Source: a virus. From it: a DNA stretch of 35,112 bases. The stretch spans positions 1 through 35,112 of IMG/VR virus record IMGVR_UViG_3300048927_000181. One strand, given 5' to 3'. The translations under genes were made by a program, and so were the position numbers. The number at the start of each line of letters is the position of its first letter. Position 1 is the stretch's first letter. The notes under the pieces were generated by a model. That model searched no databases, was not told the DNA's origin, and saw nothing but the letters and a program-made list of their open reading frames with translations. Of this stretch, positions 2,873-31,865 are shown piece after piece.

Positions 2873-3217
2873 TTAGTTTGCGCGGGTGGCCCGAGCCTTG
2901 GGCTGGCCTTCAACGACGCGGTCGATGCGGAGCGTCATGGCATCAACAGCGCTCTTTACGCCGCTGATTGCTTCCATGATTTGCTCGGTCTGTTCGCGAA
3001 GTCCGGACTTTGAGACATAGGTTTCTGCTACGTGCAGTCGGTGGGCCGCTAGCTCTTCTCTAGCGAGAGATGCCATGGCAACTGCCGATGCAGCAGCGCC
3101 TGCCGCCTCTGTCTTTGCTGCGCCAATCTTTGCGTCAATGTATTTCCACAGACCGAAGAAGAACCCGAACAGCATCACAAAGAAGCCGACGGCGCCCATG
3201 ATTTCGGCGCCGGTCAT
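2873..3217 (-). CDS. Small membrane protein with coiled-coil tail, lysis cassette
   Basis: ATG at 3217 overlaps the o-spanin stop (ATGA), so it belongs to the lysis operon. The 114-residue product has one strongly hydrophobic segment at about residues 8-26 (GAVGFFVMLFGFFFGLW). A long Ala- and Glu-rich helix likely to form a coiled coil follows (about 30-100). It has no lipobox. Proteins of this shape are frequent in rhizobial phage lysis regions. It may be a second holin, an antiholin, or a membrane anchor for the downstream tail proteins; the sequence does not decide between them. Confidence 0.65.
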   Translation of the reverse strand: MTGAEIMGAVGFFVMLFGFFFGLWKYIDAKIGAAKTEAAGAAASAVAMASLAREELAAHRLHVAETYVSKSGLREQTEQIMEAISGVKSAVDAMTLRIDRVVEGQPKARATRAN

Positions 3218-3513
3218 TTCGTGCCTCGCAGAGCGTTGTCGCGTTGTTCGTAGTAATCACGCAACGCCAGGTGCTTCCGTAAGCAGGACACCAGCCGCTC
3301 GCGGTCGGTGATCCAGAGCTTTTCGAGACGCGCCTGCGGCAGTGTCCCATTGCCCAGATCAACCGGGCTTTTGCATTGCTCCAGCAGAACGCTGTCTGGC
3401 CTCGTTAGGTGCGGCGGTGGAGGAACCGCGATTTTATCGGATCTTGTTAATGCGCTGCACGCTGGGAGCACCAAGCACAACGCGACCAGCATTAGGATCT
3501 TGGTCAGCTTCAC
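3214..3513 (-). CDS. o-spanin (Rz1-like outer-membrane lipoprotein)
   Basis: The start is GTG at 3513, chosen because AGGAG lies about eight bases upstream and the resulting 99-residue protein begins with a proper lipoprotein signal peptide. A charged start (VKLTK) is followed by a hydrophobic stretch and the lipobox LPAC, with the lipidated cysteine at residue 19. The mature part is proline-rich at first (AVPPPPH), as in Rz1 proteins. The gene begins inside the i-spanin gene in another frame, the classic embedded Rz/Rz1 arrangement. The pair spans the periplasm and disrupts the outer membrane at the end of lysis. Its stop overlaps the next gene as ATGA. Confidence 0.85.
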   Translation of the reverse strand: MKLTKILMLVALCLVLPACSALTRSDKIAVPPPPHLTRPDSVLLEQCKSPVDLGNGTLPQARLEKLWITDRERLVSCLRKHLALRDYYEQRDNALRGTK

Positions 3514-5994: not shown

Positions 5995-7583
5995 AGTCCC
6001 AAATCCCTCCAACCAAGTACCGTAAGAGTAGATGGTGTTGACCCCAGCGGAGCACCGGTGACGGCAAACTGAATCTGCCCGCTTAAGTCTGTCTTTTGTC
6101 TGGCAACTCGTTTACTTTGACCTGTGCCGCCGCTGTCATACATCTGCTCAACAACAACAGCTGTAGGATTTGCTCCGTCATACATCTGGAACTCAACGTT
6201 CGAATCGCCGTTACTTTTGACCATGTTCAGCTGCATAACAACTTCGCAACGCACCCCTGTCGGCACAGGCAAGGCAAGAGCAGCCTTCGCACGCGTGCTT
6301 GAACTGGAATAACTGGGAGACGGTGGGGTGGTGTAAGTGTATTCATTGCCGTCTTGGAAGACCCTGACAATGTTTGCCGACCCATCGGTAAGGATGCATC
6401 CAACCCTTGCAATGCGAGACCAACCAGCGGGAACCGTTGGGGCTGTCGGTGACAGTGACGCAAGCACATCATCCAAACCGTCTGAGTCTCTTCTGATGAT
6501 GTGGATATGATACGACTTGCTGGCGGACTTAGCACCAACATCTAGCGATCCCGCGCCATCGCCGACAGCCCAAAGAGCGTTTAGCAACTTTACCTTTTTA
6601 ACTGATGAAACTACCCACGCTCCCGCTCTCTGCGCCTTTCCAGGGTTTACCTCGAAAGCATTGTTAGGGTCGCCAGGATTATTGGCCTGTTCGTACCCCT
6701 GATAGAAGTCCAGCATGGACGCGAATGCCTCTCGCGTCCGCTGCGGCGTCATCAACGTATTCGAATTTGTATATGCCTGAGCCTGCGCTTTGGTAGCGAT
6801 AGCCGATGATGCAAGTTTCACGAAAGTGATTGAGCCATCAGCAGTCGTAGATGCGACCAAGATCAGAAGCCAATTGCCAGATCCACCTGAAACAGGGTCA
6901 TCTCCGATCGCGCTCTCTGTCTTTAACTGATACCAGTTGCCATCAGAGGCGCTGACTACCTGACCCTCAGTATACGTCGTGCCAGCAGAGTAATTGCCTT
7001 GATGGTCCAACGATGGCGCAGTTGAAGCGGGATAAATCTGACGCCATTCGTCTTCAAATCTGAAAAAAGCGGTAGCAACGGCCTCAAGGATATCTCCAGC
7101 AGCAAGCGGTCCACCATTGGCAGCCTTGATCTGCTGTGCCGGAGCCCCGTTAATAGAGATGGTAACAGTACCTGCGGAATTGCTCGCTATAGGCGACGGA
7201 AGAATGAGAAGCTGCGCATCTGCCGGGTCAATCCCTGAATCGGTGTTAGCAACGATGGCGTTGCCAGTGCCGGTGACATTGACAAGAGACGCAAGCGTAT
7301 CCGGGAAACCTCGGTCGAACACCCACTCTCCGCCATTCCAAGTGTACCAGCCGTTTCTTGATTTTACCGGGTCATTAAGCACTTCCCCTCTCGGAAACTC
7401 ACCAGCCTCTGGGGTCACCGACGTCAATGATGCTAAAGTAGCTCTCGATACTGCGGCACCACTGTTGTTCTGCATTTGAACAAGAAGCTGAACGATTTCG
7501 TGCTTGTCTGGCATATGAAAGCCAGAGGAAGGAACGCCATCCACTGAAAAATCGCGGTAAACATACTTTGGCGTAAGTGCCAT
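5991..7583 (-). CDS. Tail fibre / receptor-binding protein
   Basis: ATG at 7583 has TTGGAG about eight bases upstream. The 530-residue product follows the tip protein and precedes the SGNH hydrolase, the normal place for a tail fibre. The N-terminal part (1-100) is probably the virion attachment. A short module around residues 190-240 (YSAGTTYTEGQVVSASDGNW) resembles carbohydrate-binding repeats seen in phage fibres. The C-terminal half is rich in Ser, Thr, Gly and Ala and looks beta-structured. It should bind the host surface. Fibres diverge quickly, so this call rests on position and composition. Confidence 0.75.
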   Translation of the reverse strand: MALTPKYVYRDFSVDGVPSSGFHMPDKHEIVQLLVQMQNNSGAAVSRATLASLTSVTPEAGEFPRGEVLNDPVKSRNGWYTWNGGEWVFDRGFPDTLASLVNVTGTGNAIVANTDSGIDPADAQLLILPSPIASNSAGTVTISINGAPAQQIKAANGGPLAAGDILEAVATAFFRFEDEWRQIYPASTAPSLDHQGNYSAGTTYTEGQVVSASDGNWYQLKTESAIGDDPVSGGSGNWLLILVASTTADGSITFVKLASSAIATKAQAQAYTNSNTLMTPQRTREAFASMLDFYQGYEQANNPGDPNNAFEVNPGKAQRAGAWVVSSVKKVKLLNALWAVGDGAGSLDVGAKSASKSYHIHIIRRDSDGLDDVLASLSPTAPTVPAGWSRIARVGCILTDGSANIVRVFQDGNEYTYTTPPSPSYSSSSTRAKAALALPVPTGVRCEVVMQLNMVKSNGDSNVEFQMYDGANPTAVVVEQMYDSGGTGQSKRVARQKTDLSGQIQFAVTGAPLGSTPSTLTVLGWRDLGL

Positions 7584-7601
7584 GGGTAAACTCCAATAGA
7601 A

Positions 7602-9656
7602 TTATGAGATCGTGAAGGCGCCGGTCGCTGTTGCAGTCGCGGGCACTCCGGATGCGTTGATGGCAATGAGCCAGCCGTATCGGACTCCGGCCGCGAGCCC
7701 TAAAATGGCTCGATTATCAACTGCGCTTGGCGGGCCATATTCCGTCGCCATCAGGGTGGCTGTGTTGATATTATTCGTTGAGCTGATGTAGATCCGGCAC
7801 GCGAAATAATTGGAACTATTTGGTGCCGTCCATTCGAACAGCGCCTGACCAACACCTTCCGTCACCGTTACACCGGTAACTGCGCCAGGAGACACAGGAT
7901 CAGCCGTCGCCGTCACAGTGATGTAGTCTGTCCACAGTGACTGGGTGCCCCCACCCCAAGCCCGAAGCCGCAAGCGATACTGCCCACCGTCAACAAGGTA
8001 CTGAGAACGAACCTCAGACTGCCCAGCGGTTGATGTAGCGCTACGCACGGACTCTGTGACGTCAGTTCGTTCCCATTCCAACTCATACGTCAGAGCATCC
8101 GAGATCGTCGTCCATGATGCCAAAGCATAAGCAGCCGTTGCCCCGCCCGAAACGACCTCAGTCTTCAGGATAACGGTAAATCCTGTCGGCGTTGGAACGC
8201 CGGATGGATCAACCTTGTCAGGCCGTGATGGTGGTGATCCTTCTTCAACCGAGGCCACAAAACCATAGAGAGAAGCTGGCACGATGATGCCGGAGAACTC
8301 GATGGTCATATTTTTAAGTGACAATCTTGGAGTGGCTGTGATTTCGACAATCGCTTCCTCCATTTTTGGAGGGAGGTGTACCCGCACAAAACGCCGGTAA
8401 GGAACGTTTTCGGCCGCCTCATAGTGGGCAATGATAGATACCCGCTTGGCGTTGGCTCTAATGTAAGTGATCTTTTGCAGTCGCTGCACGTGGTTGTGCG
8501 ACTGGATCAATGAGTTTTCCAGCGTCTTGGTGCGCTCTGTGTCGTCATCATCTTGATACGGATTGCCGTATATCGCGGCATCTGAGGTCACAAAGTCCGC
8601 AGCGGTATCGACAAATCGACCACGCATCGCGAGCACAGTGCTCGCGTCTCGGGTGTTGGCGTCGAACTGGATGCTGAGTATATCATCACGCGTCAGCCGT
8701 ATGTCAGGCTCAACAAACCGACCCGGATGTACCCCGATCTTGCCGTCTGGCCGCTCGAAGACAACAAGCTCGCCAGCCTGGTCCATCATGCGTCCAACTT
8801 CCGTGGGGTCATTGTTTGCCCGAAACCAGAACCCGCCCTGGTATCGTTTTTCGACACTGCCTGAACGGTTGGTGACGTTTTCGTCGCAGACGTTAGCCGC
8901 AGCAATCCAGTCCGGAAGATACATGTCATCTAGCGACATCCTGCCGCCGACAGGGTGCGTCAGGTGCCACAGGCGAAACAAAGCGATGTTTGTTGTGAAG
9001 TCATAGGCAAGGCTGCGAGGATCGTAGATCGCAGAATGACCATCGATCACAGATGAAAGTTGCGGCATCTGGTTCGGAAAGATAGTGAGGAAGTCTCGCT
9101 GATCTCCGCTTGCACAAAACATGGACACAGAAGCCAGGCCATCGCCCCTGTGGTTCACAGTCCAAACACTGGGGAATGCGGCTGCTATCTCCGCGTAATG
9201 CGTCTCAGCAGGTAGTCCTCTGCGAGAAACGATTTTGACGAATTTGTTGGCTCCCTTCACAAAACGTGTGGGAACAGACACAAACCCTGTGCCATCCAGA
9301 GTAACCTTTTCATCGTGCAGGTAATGCTGAACGTATCCTTTGATGGGATGCGCGGCCTGCACAATCACATGGTAAGCGGCGGCGTTGAACTCCTCCAGAA
9401 AAGTGTAGTCTCCACCCTTCTTGACGCGACCAAGCACGTAAGGGAGTGACGGAACGTTTTGCTTCAGGTTGTAGCTGCCGTCTTCAGGCTTTGGCACTGC
9501 CGGTTTGTTGACAAACATGCCCTGAAGAGCACCCAGACCGAACGCAAGGCCACCATATGCGAGAGCAAGCGTTCCGAGATATAAGGCGTTTGCAGCGGCT
9601 ACCGTTGTGCCAAACGACGACACGATAAGGGCGCCCAGACTAATAAGGTCAGGCAT
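7602..9656 (-). CDS. Tail tip / central fibre protein (J-like) with fibronectin III-like domains
   Basis: ATG at 9656 overlaps the stop of the upstream gene (TAATG). The 684-residue product begins with a hydrophobic Ala/Gly-rich region (about 10-50), as in other host-specificity J homologues. The central hub domain follows (about 60-450, with PSLPYVLGRVKKGGDY and HPVGGRMSLDDMYLPDWI). Two fibronectin III-like modules lie at about 490-590 and 595-684 (YELEW, RLRLRAWG). In lambda-like tails this protein closes the tail tip and carries receptor specificity. Its place after the K-like gene and before the fibre supports the call. It is shorter than lambda J, the fibre being a separate gene. Confidence 0.85.
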   Translation of the reverse strand: MPDLISLGALIVSSFGTTVAAANALYLGTLALAYGGLAFGLGALQGMFVNKPAVPKPEDGSYNLKQNVPSLPYVLGRVKKGGDYTFLEEFNAAAYHVIVQAAHPIKGYVQHYLHDEKVTLDGTGFVSVPTRFVKGANKFVKIVSRRGLPAETHYAEIAAAFPSVWTVNHRGDGLASVSMFCASGDQRDFLTIFPNQMPQLSSVIDGHSAIYDPRSLAYDFTTNIALFRLWHLTHPVGGRMSLDDMYLPDWIAAANVCDENVTNRSGSVEKRYQGGFWFRANNDPTEVGRMMDQAGELVVFERPDGKIGVHPGRFVEPDIRLTRDDILSIQFDANTRDASTVLAMRGRFVDTAADFVTSDAAIYGNPYQDDDDTERTKTLENSLIQSHNHVQRLQKITYIRANAKRVSIIAHYEAAENVPYRRFVRVHLPPKMEEAIVEITATPRLSLKNMTIEFSGIIVPASLYGFVASVEEGSPPSRPDKVDPSGVPTPTGFTVILKTEVVSGGATAAYALASWTTISDALTYELEWERTDVTESVRSATSTAGQSEVRSQYLVDGGQYRLRLRAWGGGTQSLWTDYITVTATADPVSPGAVTGVTVTEGVGQALFEWTAPNSSNYFACRIYISSTNNINTATLMATEYGPPSAVDNRAILGLAAGVRYGWLIAINASGVPATATATGAFTIS

Positions 9657-10051
9657 TAAATTCTCCAGATCGCTAAGGGGGTAGCGGCCATTGGGCCTAT
9701 CTTGTCGACGAACCGCACGTTCCATCGTGCGCCGTCGAAGATCGCGCCGAATTGACGGTCAATGTTGGTCGCGCTTCCGATAACGGCAGCGTCGCCAGCT
9801 ATCGGTTTAGCCACGCGCTTTGCATTGATGGACAGCGCGCACTCTTCAATCAGTGGGACAACGCCACCGGCTTTCTGAATGATGGCTCGAAAGCCATCTT
9901 CGCTATCGTATGTGCCTCGCCAAGCCCTTGCCGGGTCTGGATAACCGAGCCAGACGGCCCACGACGCCATAAAAAGGCAGCAGTCCACCTGCCCCGGTCG
10001 CCATGGCTTTCGCTCATAGGCGCGGAAAAAATCCGATAAAGTTGTTTCCAT
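9656..10051 (-). CDS. Tail tip assembly protein, NlpC/P60-like fold (DUF6950-type)
   Basis: The 131-residue protein sits in the lambda K position between the L-like and J-like genes. PGQVDCCLFMASWAVWLG (about residues 19-36) is the aspartate-cysteine motif of NlpC/P60-type tail proteins and of the DUF6950 group. The sequence contains no histidine at all, so the usual Cys-His pair is incomplete and peptidase activity is doubtful; it may be purely structural. It ends in a TAATG overlap with the tip protein gene, indicating translational coupling. Confidence 0.75.
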   Translation of the reverse strand: METTLSDFFRAYERKPWRPGQVDCCLFMASWAVWLGYPDPARAWRGTYDSEDGFRAIIQKAGGVVPLIEECALSINAKRVAKPIAGDAAVIGSATNIDRQFGAIFDGARWNVRFVDKIGPMAATPLAIWRI

Positions 10052-10054
10052 TGG

Positions 10055-10627
10055 CTACCAGTTGGGCCAGCGAACCGTTTTATCGCGCATCAAAGGTACG
10101 CGCTCGCAGAACCTGTCAGGCGGTGCGCCTGGGTTGAGAATAGCCGAGCGGGCCTTCTGGTCAGTGTCCGAAAGGACTGCGCCGCTAGTCAGCGTTCTCA
10201 TCGTAAAACGGTTGGTGATCTCGATCGTGATATTCGACCTGATCTGTTCGCCATCCACACCATCGTTCCAAACCAAATTATCAATCCTACCAGTGAACTT
10301 AATTTGTGGTTGGCCCAACGGCTGCTCAAACTCGTCGAGCTTCTGGATCATGATACGGAAGCGAGACCCCTTAACGGTTCCAGCCTGATAATCCGCCCAG
10401 ATTGAGTTAGATGTTTTTTCATCGATGCCGTTAACGACCAGCGATAGCGTGAATGCCTCCGCGTTTATCGCCATCTCGATAGTATCGAGCGCGTCATCCG
10501 TCAGAATGCAGGATCGGTAAATGTTTCCGTCAGCATCGGTAAAAGGACCGCTTGAGCCATCCCACATGCGTATTGGGCCAGATGGCAAGTCCACCTGACA
10601 CAACACCTTCAATGCTTTCAATGCCAT
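10055..10627 (-). CDS. Tail tip protein (L-like position)
   Basis: The 190-residue protein overlaps its upstream neighbour by one base at 10627 and is followed after three bases by the K-like gene. It looks mostly beta-stranded (PIRMWDGSSGPFTDADG, FTLSLVVNGIDEKT, IKFTGRIDNLVW, ITIEITNRFTMRTL). That pattern fits proteins that build the tail-tip hub between tape measure and J. Position and the tip-protein order support the call. I could not assign a named domain with certainty. Confidence 0.7.
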   Translation of the reverse strand: MALKALKVLCQVDLPSGPIRMWDGSSGPFTDADGNIYRSCILTDDALDTIEMAINAEAFTLSLVVNGIDEKTSNSIWADYQAGTVKGSRFRIMIQKLDEFEQPLGQPQIKFTGRIDNLVWNDGVDGEQIRSNITIEITNRFTMRTLTSGAVLSDTDQKARSAILNPGAPPDRFCERVPLMRDKTVRWPNW

Positions 10628-11349
10628 TAGATTAGTCCCAATGCCAACTGGTTCCAGTAGTCAGTCGCCTCTGTGAACAAAACGGATGGGTAAGATGATC
10701 GAGACGTTCGGTCTTCCTGAATGTCCATCGCGCGATCCTCGGCCAGATGGCAAAGACATGTTGGATTATCAAACTCCAAATCAGCATCAGCCGGGATTGG
10801 TGCTCTAAGCGAAGGAGACACTTGGATTGTCCAAACATCACCATTTATCTCAATCGCAGATGCGATTTCATAAAGCGCATGTTGGTAAGAAAATCTGGAT
10901 CCTACAATATCCTCGCCTGCATTGATCACGCGTACAGAGATTACCGTGGCGGCGATGGGCGCGTCGGCATCGGCCACGATAGACACAGCGCCCTGACGAT
11001 ATTCTGTGTCGTCAGAAAATGGCGTATCGTCATCATGCGGAACAAAGATTGGTGGTTCAAAACGGCCAGAAGCGTAAGGCGTGGTTCTTGAAGATGATAC
11101 TCCAACAGCAACCAACCCTGAGCGACCGCCTAGTATTGATCTAACAGCGTTCCATGTTCGCCACTCGGCCGTTTGTCTCGGCCTCATCACGACGTTGGAA
11201 TATTGGATGGACCAATATCCCAGATCTGTTCGGACAGCGTAATCAACGCCACCCAACGACTTGCCGCCAGACCGAGTAAACGGAACTACGTTGGCAGATA
11301 TCTGCTGTGGCCGCAGAACGCACCGCGGCCACTCTATGATGCTAACCAT
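10627..11349 (-). CDS. Distal tail / tip protein (M-like position)
   Basis: The 240-residue protein follows the tape measure with one base between TGA and ATG. Its N-terminal half looks like a distal-tail protein (residues 1-100: a beta-rich start, then YWSIQYSNVVMRPRQTAEW). The C-terminal half has a CLCH motif at about residues 200-203 that might bind metal. In lambda-like tails the gene after the tape measure makes the first ring of the tip. The call rests on order and general appearance. Confidence 0.7.
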   Translation of the reverse strand: MVSIIEWPRCVLRPQQISANVVPFTRSGGKSLGGVDYAVRTDLGYWSIQYSNVVMRPRQTAEWRTWNAVRSILGGRSGLVAVGVSSSRTTPYASGRFEPPIFVPHDDDTPFSDDTEYRQGAVSIVADADAPIAATVISVRVINAGEDIVGSRFSYQHALYEIASAIEINGDVWTIQVSPSLRAPIPADADLEFDNPTCLCHLAEDRAMDIQEDRTSRSSYPSVLFTEATDYWNQLALGLI

Positions 11350-11350
11350 G

Positions 11351-14023
11351 TCAGTTCCTATAATCGCCGCCGGCAGTCTTTTGCTGATATTGAGCCATGG
11401 CTGCAGGTGCCGACTTGTTGGCTTGCGTCACTGCAACTTTGACAATAGCGCCGCTTGCGGTCTTAATCTGTTGATCGGCAATTGAAGCCATGCGTCCGCT
11501 GTCGTCCTGAAGGATGACGGTCACGACATCCTTGCTTGAGCCGGCGAATGATGACTTGTTCATGGTTGGCAAGGTAGGTGCGGATGGATTTGCATACCCA
11601 CCATTTGCGAGCCTAATTGCCTTCCCGCCATTGATGGCTTCCAGCAAACCGGCGTATTTCTTCGTCGCCGCTGCATTGACCACAAACTCTCCGTTGGAAA
11701 GCATCGCGGGGATGCTGTCGCTGCGTCCAGTTCCTGGCCCTTGGATGCGCCCACCGGTTGCGGCGTGGACAATCCCGCCATCCTTCAAGCCAAATACCTT
11801 GAGCAACCCACCAAACAACCCACCGCCACCGCCGCCACCTAAGCCGAAGATACTGTTCAGGCCTATATCGATAACTTTATCGAGTACCTTACCGAGTGCG
11901 TTTGAAAGGGCTTCTGCGGCTGTGGCTCCTCCGCGAATATCGGAGATAAAGCCACTGGTTATGTCTTTAGCGCTGCTTTTGAAATCATCGGCAGCCTGCT
12001 TGAGCTTGTCTTGGCTCTCTGCCAATCGTTCAGATTCAACAACAGCGTTGCCGTACGCCATTGCCAATTTGTCTATATTGGCTTCAAGTTCAGGCGTAAT
12101 GGCCAGGCCTGCCTCTTGGGCGGCCGTGAGCAAATCATGCTTGGCTGCGGCGTATTCCACCGCATAGCCATAGTCATTGATCAGCGGGTTTATCGCAGAC
12201 TGAGCCAGCGTTTCCGCCTGAAGGGCAGCAGTCCGTTTTTGGATTTGCTCTATCTCGCGCTGGTAGTCATTTTGTTTGGAACCGCGTCCTTTTTTGCCAG
12301 ATCCTCCGGAAGATCCGTCACCGGCGCCGCCTATTCCACCGCCAAAGCCAGTTGTGTTGGTGACCCCAGATTCGACAGGACCACCGAGGCCCGCATCCTT
12401 GATCAGTTCACGACGAGCGCGGGCAATCTCATTTGCCTTCGCGGTAACAGCCCCTACAGCCTTGTCGACTGTGCTTGTGATGGCATCACCGGCTGCGCCT
12501 ACGTAGTCTTTGGCCTCACGCGTAACCGCATCATTGAATGCCACAGCCGCCTTCTTACCCGCGCCTTCGTACTCATTGACAATGCGATCAAGATCGATCG
12601 GACCGACCTGACCAATTGGCGAAACGCCAGCATACTCGCTCAGGGAATTTATCGAAGCCACGGCGGAATTTACAGCAGAGATAACCCTGTTAATACCGGC
12701 CTCGACCCCGGCGATCATGGCATTCATCGCGCCAACCACAGCCTCGCCTATAGCCGAAGGCACAATTGTGAATGTTGCGACAATGATGTCCTTCATCCGG
12801 ACGAAGTTCTCGATCGTGTTATTCACGAAGAATTTCACGATGTCGCCAAGTCCACTAAAGGAAACTCCAGTGCCTTCGAGCACCCCATTGATCGTAGATA
12901 AGACCTGATCGAAGGCGGATGTTATTGATGCTTTTGCAGACTCAGCACCAGCCGACAGCATCTGCCACATAGCGTTCGCGTAATCGCCAAGAGTCGCAAA
13001 GCTACCCTGAAGTGGGACGATTTCATCCCACAGCTGGGTGACTGCAAAAGCAGCGGCTCCAACGGCCGCAGCCAACGCAACAAATGGATTAGCCAAAGCC
13101 GCGATCGAAGCGAAGGCTGCTCCACGTCCGAAGGTAGCAAGCAGGACTGCGCCAGCAGCCGCTGCGGCATTGGCAACAGACGAAATGTTGCCGGCCAGCG
13201 CACCCATGATCTGGCCTATAGTCTGGGTAATGCCATAAGCCTCAGACGTCTGACCGATGTATTGAGTTAGGTTGTTCTTTAGTTTGGTGAAGCTATCGCT
13301 GATCGTAGCGTTCGTCTTTGCGAACTGCGCTTCAATAGGCGCCTGAGCATTTAGGATTGCTTTAAATACGCGGTCGGAAGTTAACTTGCCTTCCGAACCC
13401 AACTTCTTGAGGCCAGCGATCGTTACGCCGAATTCTTTTGCAATGGCGTCGGCTATAACCGGAGCGTTTTCACGCAGGGACCGAAGTTCGTCGCCCTGTA
13501 GCACGCCAGAACCAAGCGCTTGTCCAAGCTGCAAAATGCCAGCAGCCTGTTCCTGAACCGCAGCGCCGCCTGCCTTAAAGGCTTTTGCAACTGTATTTGT
13601 GGCAGTGGCAATTTCTTGCTCATTTTTCGCCACGCCTGAAGCGGAGCGAATAAGACGCGCATACAGGTCGGCATAGTCCGTCAAAGAGGCTCTGGCGTCG
13701 TTAGCTCCCTTTGTAAGATCTTCAAGCGAACGGGCCTGCACACCAGCCGACTGAGCGGCCGCGTTGATCTTGTTGCCTGCCTCAGTCCACGCGTCGGCAT
13801 AGCGAGTAATCTCGGCAACACCTAGCGCACCACCAATGGCAGCAACAGAGCTAGAAAGGGTATTTTGAAACGAAGACGAAATGTTCGAATTCATTTTCTT
13901 AAACCGGCTCTCGATGGCCCTAGCCTGCCGGTTCGTAAGGCCCTGTGCGCGGTTGAGCGCGTTTTGGTATCCCTTCACGTCAGCCGAAAGCTGAACGACA
14001 AGGCGCTCCAAGTCTGTTGCCAT
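11351..14023 (-). CDS. Tail length tape measure protein
   Basis: ATG at 14023 (MATDLERLVVQL) is preferred over the upstream start because AGGA lies in front and the extra leader would overlap the plus-strand lipoprotein gene. The 890-residue product has the tape-measure N-terminal domain (about residues 60-260), with the conserved stretch around GSGVLQGDELRSLRENAP. Ala/Gly-rich hydrophobic segments follow at about 300-350. A Gly/Ser/Lys linker lies near 610-640, and a GGGGGGLFGGL patch with DGGIVHAATGG near the C-terminus. It sets tail length, here about 130 nm by the usual rule, and helps DNA entry. It is the longest gene of the window. Confidence 0.95.
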   Translation of the reverse strand: MATDLERLVVQLSADVKGYQNALNRAQGLTNRQARAIESRFKKMNSNISSSFQNTLSSSVAAIGGALGVAEITRYADAWTEAGNKINAAAQSAGVQARSLEDLTKGANDARASLTDYADLYARLIRSASGVAKNEQEIATATNTVAKAFKAGGAAVQEQAAGILQLGQALGSGVLQGDELRSLRENAPVIADAIAKEFGVTIAGLKKLGSEGKLTSDRVFKAILNAQAPIEAQFAKTNATISDSFTKLKNNLTQYIGQTSEAYGITQTIGQIMGALAGNISSVANAAAAAGAVLLATFGRGAAFASIAALANPFVALAAAVGAAAFAVTQLWDEIVPLQGSFATLGDYANAMWQMLSAGAESAKASITSAFDQVLSTINGVLEGTGVSFSGLGDIVKFFVNNTIENFVRMKDIIVATFTIVPSAIGEAVVGAMNAMIAGVEAGINRVISAVNSAVASINSLSEYAGVSPIGQVGPIDLDRIVNEYEGAGKKAAVAFNDAVTREAKDYVGAAGDAITSTVDKAVGAVTAKANEIARARRELIKDAGLGGPVESGVTNTTGFGGGIGGAGDGSSGGSGKKGRGSKQNDYQREIEQIQKRTAALQAETLAQSAINPLINDYGYAVEYAAAKHDLLTAAQEAGLAITPELEANIDKLAMAYGNAVVESERLAESQDKLKQAADDFKSSAKDITSGFISDIRGGATAAEALSNALGKVLDKVIDIGLNSIFGLGGGGGGGLFGGLLKVFGLKDGGIVHAATGGRIQGPGTGRSDSIPAMLSNGEFVVNAAATKKYAGLLEAINGGKAIRLANGGYANPSAPTLPTMNKSSFAGSSKDVVTVILQDDSGRMASIADQQIKTASGAIVKVAVTQANKSAPAAMAQYQQKTAGGDYRN

Positions 14024-25212: not shown

Positions 25213-25290
25213 TGGTCTGCGTGGCTGGATTCGAACCAGCGGCTCCCGCAGTCCAAGTGCGGTACTCTGACCAGACTGAGCTACACACAG
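25213..25290 (-). tRNA. tRNA-Pro (UGG)
   Basis: The full cloverleaf is visible on the minus strand. It has acceptor CTGTGTG/CACGCAG, anticodon stem CCGCA/TGCGG with loop CTTGGAC (anticodon UGG), T arm GCTGG-TTCGAAT-CCAGC, discriminator A and an encoded CCA (25213-25215). It is the last of six tRNA genes in this cluster. Confidence 0.93.
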
Positions 25291-25295
25291 ATGAT

Positions 25296-25371
25296 TGGTG
25301 CCGACAGCAGGAATCGAACCCACGACATCCTCGTTACAAAGGAGGCGCTCTACCTACTGAGCTATGTCGGC
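25296..25371 (-). tRNA. tRNA-Thr (UGU)
   Basis: Acceptor GCCGACA/TGTCGGC is fully paired. The D arm is GCTC-AGTAGGTA-GAGC, the anticodon loop TTTGTAA gives UGU, the T loop is TTCGATT, the discriminator is A and CCA is encoded (25296-25298). The anticodon stem CCTCC/CGAGG has a C-C mismatch at pair 31-39, next to the loop. Confidence 0.9.
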
Positions 25372-25376
25372 GTGAA

Positions 25377-25450
25377 TGGTGGAGCGTGTCGGAATCGAAC
25401 CGACCGGCAGCAATCTTGCAAGGATTACCCGCTTACCCAGAGCACGTCCC
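25377..25450 (-). tRNA. tRNA-Ala (UGC), irregular
   Basis: Anticodon loop CTTGCAA on stem TAATC/GATTG gives UGC. The T arm is GTCGG-TTCGATT-CCGAC, with discriminator A and encoded CCA (25377-25379). The acceptor GGGACGT/ACGCTCC has one A-C mismatch and a G3-U70 wobble pair, the classical alanine identity element. The D region is short, about 16 bases between acceptor and anticodon stem. A GCA (Cys) reading of the loop is possible but pairs less well. Confidence 0.72.
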
Positions 25451-25460
25451 AATTGAATGA

Positions 25461-25546
25461 TGGCGGAAGACTGAGGAATCGAACCCCTGACCTTGCGGTC
25501 CCCTCGGTTTTCAAGACCGATTGCCAACCATTTAGCGGCGCCTTCC
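25461..25546 (-). tRNA. tRNA-Ser (UGA)
   Basis: Acceptor GGAAGGC/GTCTTCC, anticodon loop TTGAAAA on stem CGGTC/CCGAG-type pairing (anticodon UGA), a long variable arm as required for serine, T loop TTCGATT, the serine-type discriminator G, and encoded CCA (25461-25463). Confidence 0.9.
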
Positions 25547-25551
25547 ATAAT

Positions 25552-25639
25552 TGGCGGATAGTGTTGGGATTGAACCAACGAAACCTAGGAAGGCTCTACA
25601 GTTTAGCAAACTGCTGCATTACCGCTCTGCCAACTATCC
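25552..25639 (-). tRNA. tRNA-Ser (GCU)
   Basis: Acceptor GGATAGT/ACTATCC is fully paired. Anticodon stem GCAGT/ACTGT carries loop TTGCTAA (anticodon GCU), a long variable arm follows, the T loop is TTCAATC, the discriminator is G and CCA is encoded (25552-25554). Confidence 0.9.
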
Positions 25640-25648
25640 ATTAAGAGC

Positions 25649-25716
25649 AAAAGCGGCTGGGAGTGTGCACGACCTGCCAAGCTTTCGCTAACAGGGTCAC
25701 ACTACAACCAGCCGCA
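25649..25716 (-). ncRNA. Tightly folded tRNA-sized hairpin RNA in the tRNA cluster
   Basis: Read on the minus strand, outer arms GCGGCTGG/CCAGCCGC (25708-25715 with 25653-25660) enclose AGTGTG/CACACT, then ACC-CTG/CAGGT with a bulge. The inner stem has several G-U pairs and is closed by a GAAA tetraloop. TTTTG follows at the 3' side. It has no anticodon arm or T-loop, so it is not a normal tRNA. It lies between tRNA-fMet and tRNA-Ser(GCU) and may be a processing signal, terminator or independent small RNA. Confidence 0.6.
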
Positions 25717-25753
25717 CGATCACCATGCAAGCGGAGGAGAACGCGCATGGGAT

Positions 25754-25830
25754 TGGTTGCGGAGGTGAGATTTGAACTCACGGCCTCCAGCTTATGAGGC
25801 TGGCGAGCTACCGGGCTGCTCTACTCCACG
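25754..25830 (-). tRNA. Initiator tRNA-fMet (CAU)
   Basis: Anticodon loop CTCATAA gives CAU. Two bacterial initiator hallmarks are present: the C1-A72 mismatch at the acceptor end (CGTGGAG opposite CTCCGCA) and the A11-U24 pair in the D stem (GAGC/GCTC). The D loop AGCCCGGTA and T loop TTCAAAT also match bacterial fMet tRNAs, and CCA is encoded (25754-25756). The anticodon stem is CCAGC/GCTGG and therefore lacks the three consecutive G-C pairs of the usual initiator. It is the first tRNA of the cluster. Confidence 0.92.
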
Positions 25831-28393: not shown

Positions 28394-28870
28394 TCAATCG
28401 AGCAGTTCTGCAGGCACCTTGCCGCCATTTTCTGACAGCTTCTTCAGAAGCGCCTTGTGAAGCCATGTGTTCATTTCTGCAGACCCGTTTAGCTCGCCGG
28501 TGTAGCCAAGCTCCTGCGCCAGTTCTTTGCGCTCAGAGAGGCTCGCATCCATCCCAAGGGCTTTCATCAAGTCGACGATAGAATGCTTCCAGTCGAGCTT
28601 CTGACCGCTGCTCTTCACCGCCGCATCGAACTGAGCTGCCACATCTACAGGACTACTTGACGTCGGCGCGGATGACGCGGGCGCTGATGCACCAGAGGTT
28701 GGCGGGACCGCCTGGCCCGTTCCTCCGACTGAAGGAGCCGTTGTTGCAGCTGGTTCTGGGATGGACGATGGCGCAGGCGTTGGCTCAGCCGCAGTCGGTG
28801 ATGCCGGCGCCGTCTCTGCATGGGCCGATCGTCCAAAAATGGCGTCCTTGATTTTTCCGAAAATGCTCAT
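28394..28870 (-). CDS. DUF3597 family protein
   Basis: ATG at 28870 has AGGAG about seven bases upstream. The 158-residue protein starts with MSIFGKIKDAIFG, typical of DUF3597. It then has a flexible Pro/Ala/Ser-rich linker (about 20-75) and a helical C-terminal domain (SSPVDVAAQFDAAVKSSGQK, then SIVDLMKALGMDASLSERKE and WLHKALLKKLSENGGKVP). The family is common in bacterial chromosomes and its function is not known. It is arranged behind the CsbD gene in the same direction, which suggests stress-related cargo rather than a phage assembly gene. Confidence 0.88.
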   Translation of the reverse strand: MSIFGKIKDAIFGRSAHAETAPASPTAAEPTPAPSSIPEPAATTAPSVGGTGQAVPPTSGASAPASSAPTSSSPVDVAAQFDAAVKSSGQKLDWKHSIVDLMKALGMDASLSERKELAQELGYTGELNGSAEMNTWLHKALLKKLSENGGKVPAELLD

Positions 28871-28892
28871 GTGTTTCTCCTCATCGTTACAA

Positions 28893-28925
28893 ACGAAAGC
28901 CGCCGGCTATTGCTAACCAGCGGCT
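28893..28925 (-). terminator. Hairpin after the CsbD gene
   Basis: On the minus strand AGCCGC/GCGGCT (28898-28903 with 28920-28925), with some inner pairs, is followed by TTCGTTT. It is a weak rho-independent terminator between CsbD and DUF3597, so part of the transcription may read through. Confidence 0.55.
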
Positions 28926-28943
28926 CGATTTCATTTTAAGTAA

Positions 28944-29147
28944 TCACCACGTCTGGCGGCCATACCAGTCATCGATGTCTTTTTTGGTTTGGTCTTTTTC
29001 GTAGCCATATCGCTCTTGGATCTTGCCCTCGAGCTGGTCACGTTTGCCATTGATGACATCAAGATCATCATCAGTGAGTTTGCCCCACTGTTCCTTGATC
29101 TTGCCCTTCATCTGCTTCCAGTTACCTTCAACGCGGTTCCAGTCCAT
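28944..29147 (-). CDS. CsbD family stress protein
   Basis: ATG at 29147 has GAGGAG about six bases upstream. The 67-residue product is a standard CsbD protein: MDWNRVEGNWKQMKGKIKEQ at the start, WGKLTDDDLDVINGKRDQLE, then GKIQERYGYEKDQTKKDIDDW. CsbD proteins are small, helical and abundant under general stress; their biochemical role is unknown. An EcfG-like promoter lies just upstream, so expression is probably tied to the host general stress response. It is not a usual phage gene and is likely cargo. Confidence 0.93.
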   Translation of the reverse strand: MDWNRVEGNWKQMKGKIKEQWGKLTDDDLDVINGKRDQLEGKIQERYGYEKDQTKKDIDDWYGRQTW

Positions 29148-29383: not shown

Positions 29384-29411
29384 TTGACGAATCGCGCGCA
29401 ATAATTACTAT
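29384..29411 (+). promoter_or_regulatory. Promoter of the riboswitch unit
   Basis: TTGACG (29384-29389), 16 bases, TACTAT (29406-29411). It would start RNA close to 29418, just before the first conserved base of the cobalamin riboswitch, which supports it. Confidence 0.55.
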
Positions 29412-29419
29412 ATGTAGCG

Positions 29420-29597
29420 TTCTAGGTTCTTTGCCGAATTTGTCGGCAGGATTAATAGGGAACACGATAGGGACTTATCCTCATTCGTGGCTGCCCCCGC
29501 AACTGTGAGCGGAGAGCGTTTGATCTTTTACCACTGATGCAAAATGCATCCGGAAGGCAGATCAGAAGCAATGACCCGCAAGCCAGGTTACCTGCCT
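29420..29597 (+). promoter_or_regulatory. Cobalamin (vitamin B12) riboswitch
   Basis: The conserved blocks occur in the right order. They are GGTTCTTTGCCG with its hairpin and AATAGGGAACACGA, then GTGGCTGCCCCCGCAACTGT with GAGCGG. CCACTG follows, then CCGGAAGGC, and finally ACCCGCAAGCCAGG with the closing ACCTGCC. It would bind a cobalamin and change expression of what follows. The only thing between it and a strong terminator is a 39-codon frame; no B12 transport or synthesis gene is near. Confidence 0.9.
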
Positions 29598-29633
29598 AGA
29601 ATTCAATCTCGTAACTCGAATTGTGGGGGCGCT

Positions 29634-29753
29634 ATGTCGTACTCAGATTTTTTGGACGCTATCAGTGCGTTTTTTTCTCATCCATTTGTCTTGATGGTCG
29701 GCAGTGCGTTGGTTAGTTGGCGACTTAAGGTCAAACAGAAGCATGAAAAATGA
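29634..29753 (+). CDS. 39-residue membrane peptide under the cobalamin riboswitch
   Basis: ATG at 29634 starts 37 bases after the riboswitch, with a G-rich stretch (GTGGGGG) as a weak ribosome site. The product MSYSDFLDAISAFFSHPFVL continues with MVGSALVSWRLKVKQKHEK. It has one likely transmembrane helix (about residues 9-28) and a basic tail of about 10 residues. It is not CbtB, the usual small B12-regulated membrane protein, because that family's His-rich end is missing. A perfect terminator follows 20 bases after the stop. The unit may make a peptide, or the RNA itself may be the product. Confidence 0.55.
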   Translation: MSYSDFLDAISAFFSHPFVLMVGSALVSWRLKVKQKHEK

Positions 29754-29773
29754 ACGAATGATTGATGACAACT

Positions 29774-29808
29774 AAGTAGCCAAGAATTCCTTGGCTACTT
29801 CCTTTTTG
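29774..29808 (+). terminator. Strong terminator of the riboswitch unit
   Basis: Perfect 11-base stem AAGTAGCCAAG/CTTGGCTACTT (29774-29784 with 29790-29800) followed by CCTTTTT. It closes the promoter-riboswitch-peptide unit. Confidence 0.88.
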
Positions 29809-30755: not shown

Positions 30756-31865
30756 ATGAAAGTATTCGTCGGTTACGCGAAAGAAGACGGTGTAGTTGCT
30801 GTCCAGATAGTCCAGTTTCTGGAAGCTCTCGGAATCGATGTCTGGTTCGATAAAAAATCGCTTGTAGGCGGCGATAATTGGGATGATGAGAGACTTGGCG
30901 CTCAACAATCTGCTGATCTAGTTATCCATATCTGCTCTGAGCAAATTATGACGCGCCCTGGCGTGGTCAATCGAGAAATCAGAGAGACGCTGCGCTTGGC
31001 AGAGGATAAGCCATTTGGAAGCAACTTCGTTATTTTCGTACGCATTAATGGGGTCCGTCTTCCCGGCTCCTTTCTTCGGTACCACTACATAGATTTCGAC
31101 GACAATTGGCGACAGTCGATTGCTCTCGCTGTTGGTAAAAAGGTAGGACAAATACGGCAGAACCCTGACGCGCAGCCCGTTTTCAATCGCGAAAACGTAA
31201 GCGTCGTGGACGGCATCTCAACACACCTGATTGAGGAGAAAACAGACACCTTTGAGCTTTCAGTGGAGTACTTTGAGTACACCTCTCATGAAAGATTTTG
31301 GCGATTGGTGTCCTCGCACATCGAAGCCAAAGCGCTCGATCAATATTACGGTTTTAAATCAAGTGCGGCAATCATTGACGACGAACAGATCAATAGTGGC
31401 TTCTTCCGAAGCTGGGAATTTCAGATCAACACTGAGGAATTCTATCGCGCGAACGATTTTGTATCCATAAGGTATTCCGTCTACATGGATACGGGAGGGG
31501 CACATGGTAACCATAGGACCATGACGTCAAACTTCTTCGGGGAATCCTTTGGTTTCCTTAGCATTCGCGATCTGCTTCAAAATGACGATGAGAAGGCTCA
31601 AAAAGTCATGGCCTATTGCCTCAAGGTCGTTGAGGCGGGCATGGATGAAACCGCCTCTTGGTTGATCGATATTGATGACACGGCGCAAGTTTGGGGCGCC
31701 CTGGAGGACTTCAGCTTCGACAACCGTGGGCTTACCTTCAATTTTAGTCCTTACGTGATATTAGCGTACGTCTTTGGTGATCACGAAGCTCATATGCCGT
31801 GGTCTGTGGCTTCGAGTTTCGTAGGCGAGCGATACATGGAACATTGGTACCGAAGCACGGTATGA
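30756..31865 (+). CDS. TIR domain fused to RsiV-like DUF4163/DUF3298 region
   Basis: ATG at 30756 has GAGGG about eight bases upstream. The N-terminal ~130 residues are a TIR domain: VFVGYAKEDGVVAVQIVQFL, then IDVWFDKKSLVGGDNWD, VIHICS and RPGVVNREIRETL. Glu74 is the likely NADase catalytic residue. Residues about 165-365 match DUF4163/DUF3298 as in Bacillus RsiV: a charged start, the hallmark TGGAHGN at 246-252, FLSIRDLLQ, and the end part GLTFNFSPYVILAYVFGD. There is no signal peptide or transmembrane helix, so the whole protein is cytosolic. Bacterial TIR proteins commonly kill or arrest cells by consuming NAD+ on phage infection; RsiV uses DUF3298 to bind lysozyme. I infer a sensor-effector defence protein carried by the prophage. 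Confidence 0.85.
   Translation: MKVFVGYAKEDGVVAVQIVQFLEALGIDVWFDKKSLVGGDNWDDERLGAQQSADLVIHICSEQIMTRPGVVNREIRETLRLAEDKPFGSNFVIFVRINGVRLPGSFLRYHYIDFDDNWRQSIALAVGKKVGQIRQNPDAQPVFNRENVSVVDGISTHLIEEKTDTFELSVEYFEYTSHERFWRLVSSHIEAKALDQYYGFKSSAAIIDDEQINSGFFRSWEFQINTEEFYRANDFVSIRYSVYMDTGGAHGNHRTMTSNFFGESFGFLSIRDLLQNDDEKAQKVMAYCLKVVEAGMDETASWLIDIDDTAQVWGALEDFSFDNRGLTFNFSPYVILAYVFGDHEAHMPWSVASSFVGERYMEHWYRSTV

Follow-up and report, generated by a model that had tools for sequence, protein, structure and literature searches.

A cobalamin riboswitch related to rhizobial nrdHIEF leaders precedes a conserved frame for a predicted 39-residue membrane peptide in a phage genome

Rli55 of Listeria and EutX of Enterococcus are small RNAs under the control of B12 riboswitches, of a type in which paired hairpins are bound by an ANTAR protein in connection with the eut genes. 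In corrinoid riboswitches more generally, the ligand-bound form contains a kissing loop between L5 and L13 that usually shuts expression, and one activating corrinoid riboswitch is known (PMC10653944). Short upstream open reading frames (uORFs) are found behind the B12 riboswitches of metE and ppe2 in Mycobacterium tuberculosis (PMC11260477). Riboswitches of phages have been described as rare, and a glutamine riboswitch occurs in Melnitz-like phages (PMC9004378); no report of a phage whose own gene is under a B12 riboswitch was found in the open-access literature.

The DNA analysed here, referred to as the window, is the whole stretch of 35,112 bases at positions 1-35,112 of IMG/VR virus record IMGVR_UViG_3300048927_000181. 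A Pfam scan combined with open frames revealed terminase, portal, protease, capsid, tail, lysozyme and integrase-type genes, mostly on the minus strand, and the terminase matches that of Rhizobium phage 16-3 at 74.7%. The window is a tailed-phage genome whose host is a soil bacterium akin to Rhizobium and Agrobacterium. The minus strand carries a cluster of five tRNA genes (Pro, Thr, Ala, Ser, Met) at 25213-25830. The riboswitch unit is located on the plus strand, inside a stretch of accessory genes, and, in line with a first-pass annotation made from the sequence, no B12 gene was found in the window's open frames or among the neighbours scanned with Pfam. The same annotation had placed a promoter, a complete cobalamin riboswitch, a 39-codon frame and a terminator within 425 bases, and all of these elements were recovered:

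29384-29413, plus strand: promoter of the alphaproteobacterial housekeeping type, with TTGACG at 29384-29389 and CTATAT at 29408-29413
29407-29613, plus strand: cobalamin riboswitch aptamer, RF00174, 99.5 bits, E 6.3e-24
29489-29502, plus strand: conserved core with loop L5, GGCTGCCCCCGCAA, from the RF00174 alignment; L5 consensus UCCCG (PMC10653944)
29580-29596, plus strand: B12 box, from the RF00174 alignment, with J6/3 at 29588-29590
29620-29633, plus strand: ribosome-binding region and predicted L13/translation-off element, complementary to the L5 core and ending at the start codon
29634-29753, plus strand: gene for the predicted 39-residue membrane peptide MSYSDFLDAISAFFSHPFVLMVGSALVSWRLKVKQKHEK, ATG at 29634, TGA at 29753, 39 codons
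29774-29808, plus strand: intrinsic terminator, 11-bp stem at 29774-29800 with a 5-nt loop, then CCTTTTT

Further copies of the unit were obtained by two routes. Scanning viral contigs for the core of the riboswitch identified the phage contig L005, where a 39-codon frame, MSYSEFSEAISAFFAHPFILALVPVLIGWYLNREKAKDK, comes after a cobalamin riboswitch of 112 bits, and a peptide search of viral contigs identified the phage contig L010, which carries a riboswitch of 103.9 bits, with two conserved bases next to L5 changed (CCCCCTAAAC), and the 39-residue relative MSYSEFSEAISAFFAHPFVLALVPVLLGWYLNREKAKDE. Each of these peptides is 49% identical to that of the window. In L003, the contig of a different-looking phage, the contig end falls inside a similar aptamer. 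Complete units were found in three phages only (the window, L005 and L010), two of them close relatives, and a pattern scan for further captured leaders returned L003, L005 and L010/L012 only, the other 22 stretches being without the aptamer core. A wide occurrence of the unit in this phage group was rejected: a complete aptamer, with RF00174 over the cut-off, was present in 2/50 fetched phage records, which are mostly terminase relatives of varying completeness, L003 being missed there with its aptamer cut by the contig end. A more distant relative of the peptide, MSAYDVVDAVAKFLAHPFVLMVASLLLGWWLRRLRPRR (45%), resides in a prophage of an Agrobacterium-family genome with no riboswitch, and this riboswitch-free form was also observed in an IMG/VR record.

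An AGA-type J6/3 in the B12 box is a common feature of RF00174, albeit not one that decides the score. The RF00174 match of the window is full-length and uncut (model positions 1-189) and lies well over the cut-off of 31.5 bits, which bears out the annotation of a complete riboswitch. Its model score is below that of the host copies described below, and 36 of the 51 consensus pairs are canonical, against 39-42 in the host leaders. In an alignment fitted to the RF00174 model, 6-9 compensatory changes relative to related copies were observed in P1 and other stems; the two-sided changes amount to nine against L005 and seven against L138, with P1 among them. J6/3 of the window reads TTA (UUA in the RNA), as compared with AGA in 34 other copies counted among the fetched loci and ATT in one further copy; L005 and L010 have AGA, and outside J6/3 the B12 box of the window is conserved. 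Score and structure place the window RNA in the cobalamin riboswitch family, with one deviating element, and ligand binding is predicted. With UUA at J6/3, this aptamer may be altered or decaying, and its choice of ligand or its activity has perhaps changed.

The first-pass annotation left two readings of the unit, as a B12-controlled membrane protein or as a B12-dependent regulatory RNA, and the comparison of frame and RNA conservation supports the former and disfavours the latter. The frame is conserved behind the riboswitch in three phages, with dN/dS values of 0.22 (window/L005) and 0.15 (L005/L010) and a third value of 0.25. There is an excess of synonymous over non-synonymous changes (Fisher p 0.0017 and 0.015), and the frame is consequently a gene under purifying selection, whose control by B12 is a prediction. 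Conversely, the 3' part of the window transcript, including its terminator, differs from those of L005 and L010. As two further phages carry the unit and the frame evolves as a protein, the arrangement is beyond chance. A terminator-like hairpin in the middle of the frame (29654-29672) was considered and dropped, the first half of its stem differing in L005 and L010.

The peptide is predicted to be a small single-span membrane protein with an N-terminal helix and a longer hydrophobic helix. The AlphaFold2 model places helices at residues 3-14 and 17-38, separated by a break at His-Pro (pLDDT 84), and the most hydrophobic 15 residues start at residue 13; the peptide has an acidic N-terminal half and a basic or neutral tail. 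No match was obtained against the Pfam, PHROGs and PADLOC models. Likewise, searches for relatives gave only a chance-level match among named phages, none in plasmids, none in genome contigs by alignment search and none in two further genera (148 and 146 genomes), whereas a genus of 26 genomes returned only the copy already known. The peptide family is rare, with one occurrence, the riboswitch-free prophage form, in 395 genomes of the family and none in 397 genomes of the order.

The closest host riboswitches, as determined by blastn, precede NrdH and NrdI frames at 6/6 plasmid loci examined, mostly with NrdE behind, and one of the NrdH frames was confirmed with NCBIfam TIGR02194. L005 displays up to about 79% identity to these nrdHIEF leaders across 200 bases. 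In a tree of 26 aptamers, the three phage copies and nine nrdHIEF leaders fall on one side of a branch with support of 94/89, a clade that is not starred, and an earlier FastTree run that included L003 gave the same grouping of phages and nrdHIEF leaders; the trees comprise 26-27 aptamers from few genomes. L005 and L010 are nested among the host leaders, with the window at the base. A single origin of the three phage aptamers was rejected (p-AU 0.008, on few and short sequences); repeated capture, or recombination with host leaders, could account for this. The promoter points in the same direction. Its elements, TTGACG at 29384 and TACTAT/CTATAT at 29406-29413, form a pattern that by itself occurs at chance level (two found vs 1.3 in shuffles); support is provided by related leaders and phages, the TTGAC...CTATAT layout recurring with similar placement in the nrdHIEF leaders of hosts and also in L003, L005 and L010. 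The sequence GTTCGAGGTTCTTCCGATT is common to the host leaders, L003, L005 and L010; of these features the window retains the promoter layout.

Promoter and aptamer were thus most likely captured together from a rhizobial nrdHIEF leader, as judged from these sequence relationships. No match to NrdH, NrdI or NrdE was found in the window, L005, L010 or L003. Remnants of nrd genes near the unit were sought and rejected, no nrd gene or fragment being found in the phages, and an origin of the frame as a relic of a leader ORF of nrdHIEF was likewise dismissed, the host leaders having no homologous frame. The suspicion that the riboswitch belonged to a disrupted B12 gene is relevant in part: the aptamer is closest to the leaders of another operon, but no remnant of that operon accompanies it and its expression platform looks rebuilt. 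On another viral contig, L008, a cobalamin riboswitch of 131 bits (3209-3412, minus strand) is located before a frame resembling an ATP-cone ribonucleotide reductase subunit; the 'nrdJ' label of this copy in the trees is uncertain, given the nature of the frame downstream.

This apparent rebuilding concerns the position of the sequence complementary to L5. In the host nrdHIEF leaders GGCGGGGTG complements L5; it follows the B12 box by about 20-35 nt and is distant from nrdH, which starts more than 240 nt from the box. In the phages 37-46 nt separate the B12 box from the ATG, and the stretch that best complements the L5 core runs up to the start codon (window 29620-29633, L005 7157-7169, L010 9986-10000), at nearly the same distance behind the box as L13 in the host leaders. 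From the fact that this complement ends at the start codon in three phages, the ribosome site seems to have replaced L13, and the platform appears to have been rebuilt for the new gene. The duplex between L5 and 29620-29633 in the window was calculated at -22.7 kcal/mol, compared to a mean of -11.0 for shuffled sequences, and complementarity as strong was reached in 0/500 shuffles for the window, 0/500 for L005 and 8/500 for L010, in which it is weaker. The complementary sequences in the window differ from those in L005 and L010. Around the ribosome site the phages showed no clear P13 stem. In minimum-energy folds without ligand, 29620-29633 is paired almost completely with 29489-29502, and the corresponding stretches of L005, folded to ATG+30, pair likewise. 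Ligand-free folding alone leaves the sign of the switch unfixed, the folding program being able to represent neither the kissing loop nor the ligand. The simplest reading is that B12 probably turns translation off, and starvation for B12 turns it on.

In combination, these observations make it probable that the unit is a phage moron encoding a single-span membrane protein with its own promoter, translation of which is switched by an nrdHIEF-derived cobalamin riboswitch. The unit would be transcribed from the promoter taken over with the aptamer from the rhizobial leader. With plentiful adenosylcobalamin the aptamer would fold, L5 would pair with the ribosome-binding region and the peptide would not be made; when B12 is scarce, and the B12-independent ribonucleotide reductase of the host is on, the ribosome site would be free and, we infer, the peptide would be made in the lysogen.

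The opposite sense, in which the ligand-free aptamer core hides the ribosome site and the ligand frees it, would agree with the unconstrained folds of the window and of L005, and an activating corrinoid riboswitch does exist (PMC10653944). Still, this reading is improbable: the pairing uses L5 in the manner of the repressing kissing loop and near the position of the host L13, the host relatives precede a B12-independent enzyme, which calls for an off-switch, and the folds derive from a program beyond whose reach kissing loop and ligand lie. A small but real chance attaches to the alternative that the leader was picked up by chance and is decaying, so that only the promoter matters and the switch of the window no longer senses B12. 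UUA at J6/3, the lower score and fewer canonical pairs of the window compared with the host copies, and the changes next to L5 in L010 are what such decay would produce; conversely, compensatory changes maintain P1 and other stems of the window, and complementarity between L5 and the start region is present in 3/3 phages, the window using other sequences than L005 and L010.

The remaining alternatives concern the product rather than the switch. That the transcript is a B12-dependent regulatory RNA as in Listeria and Enterococcus, with an incidental frame, would suit a short, self-contained unit with a terminator, yet is very improbable in view of the selection on codons, the peptide relative in another prophage without any riboswitch, and a 3' part and terminator not common to L005 and L010. 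Slightly less credible still is that the frame serves as a leader or upstream peptide for a longer operon. In this case, the interplay of uORFs with the M. tuberculosis B12 riboswitches (PMC11260477) would provide a model, and plus-strand frames do lie downstream in the window (30196 and 30756) and in L010 (10411). However, a strong terminator intervenes in the window, the next genes of L005 are convergent on the opposite strand, the downstream genes are different in each of the three phages and the peptide is conserved as a protein.

If the favoured reading, a B12-repressed membrane protein, is true, the phage reads the B12 state of its host via a host-derived sensor tied to ribonucleotide reduction, the step required for DNA synthesis in B12-dependent rhizobia. 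This would provide a concrete handle on a membrane microprotein and an example of a simple layout, with L5 pairing directly to the ribosome site. A further-reaching and rather doubtful proposal, drawn from the sequence comparisons, is that the nrdHIEF promoter-riboswitch was combined with this microprotein family on more than one occasion in phages. Selection would then favour making the membrane protein precisely in B12 starvation, and the ribosome site would itself act as L13. If so, a phage function would be wired to the ribonucleotide reductase switch of the host.

Superinfection exclusion is a frequent role of small single-span prophage proteins, and some phages use BtuB, the B12-repressed receptor for B12, as their own receptor. 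Sinorhizobium meliloti has a B12-dependent reductase, NrdJ, shortage of which leads to DNA stress (PMC4230183). Together these make a role in exclusion or in adjusting uptake plausible. As a tentative guess by analogy, the peptide could be an envelope protein of the superinfection-exclusion type or a modulator of uptake, which would matter when the B12-starvation programme of the host, including the B12 receptor, is on.

The unit occupies a variable spot next to conserved phage genes, and this spot also takes defence-type genes. Beside the unit in the window, a gene at 30756-31865 combines TIR, PdaC and DUF3298 domains and possibly encodes a defence protein. In L005 the unit is adjacent to a SIR2 and HerA pair (7572-10813), and near the unit of L010, which has another gene as a neighbour too, 11563-12564 gives a strong match to the defence candidate PDC-S05. 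A match to RF02346 (ar35 sRNA) in L010 at 11441-11577 is just at the cut-off. The intergenic regions behind the unit in L005 (7330-7560) and L010 (10140-10360) contain many copies of GGGAACG and its complement, perhaps operator sites. On the other side, window 28394-29147 carries DUF3597 and CsbD-like genes, host-type stress genes as phage cargo, and CsbD is 91-94% identical across several related prophages. Near the end of L011, a B12-riboswitch-like sequence (11318-11407, minus strand) lies directly before an integrase-like gene, as if this element were seated at a cobalamin riboswitch; a Vibrio cholerae island is inserted in the btuB riboswitch (PMC12409358).

Compared with the described systems, the phage unit resembles Rli55 and EutX in being a short terminated transcript with a B12 aptamer, but differs from them in encoding a conserved protein. 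With metE and ppe2 of M. tuberculosis it shares a short translated frame linked to a B12 riboswitch, whereas the phages have no common downstream gene and the short frame is the sole conserved product. The glutamine riboswitch of the Melnitz-like phages is likewise a metabolite riboswitch in a phage genome, with a different ligand and a different target. The full-length aptamer, the core, the B12 box and the complementarity of L5 to a downstream stretch are those of the RF00174 class with an L5-L13 kissing loop; unlike in that class, a phage microprotein takes the place of a B12 or B12-alternative gene as the target, L5 is predicted to pair with the ribosome site itself, and J6/3 of the window is UUA. 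Closest of all are the Rhizobiaceae leaders of nrdHIEF (class Ib ribonucleotide reductase), in aptamer sequence, in the tree and in promoter layout. As the phages are without the nrd operon, the unit is not itself an nrdHIEF leader, though it is a probable descendant of one.
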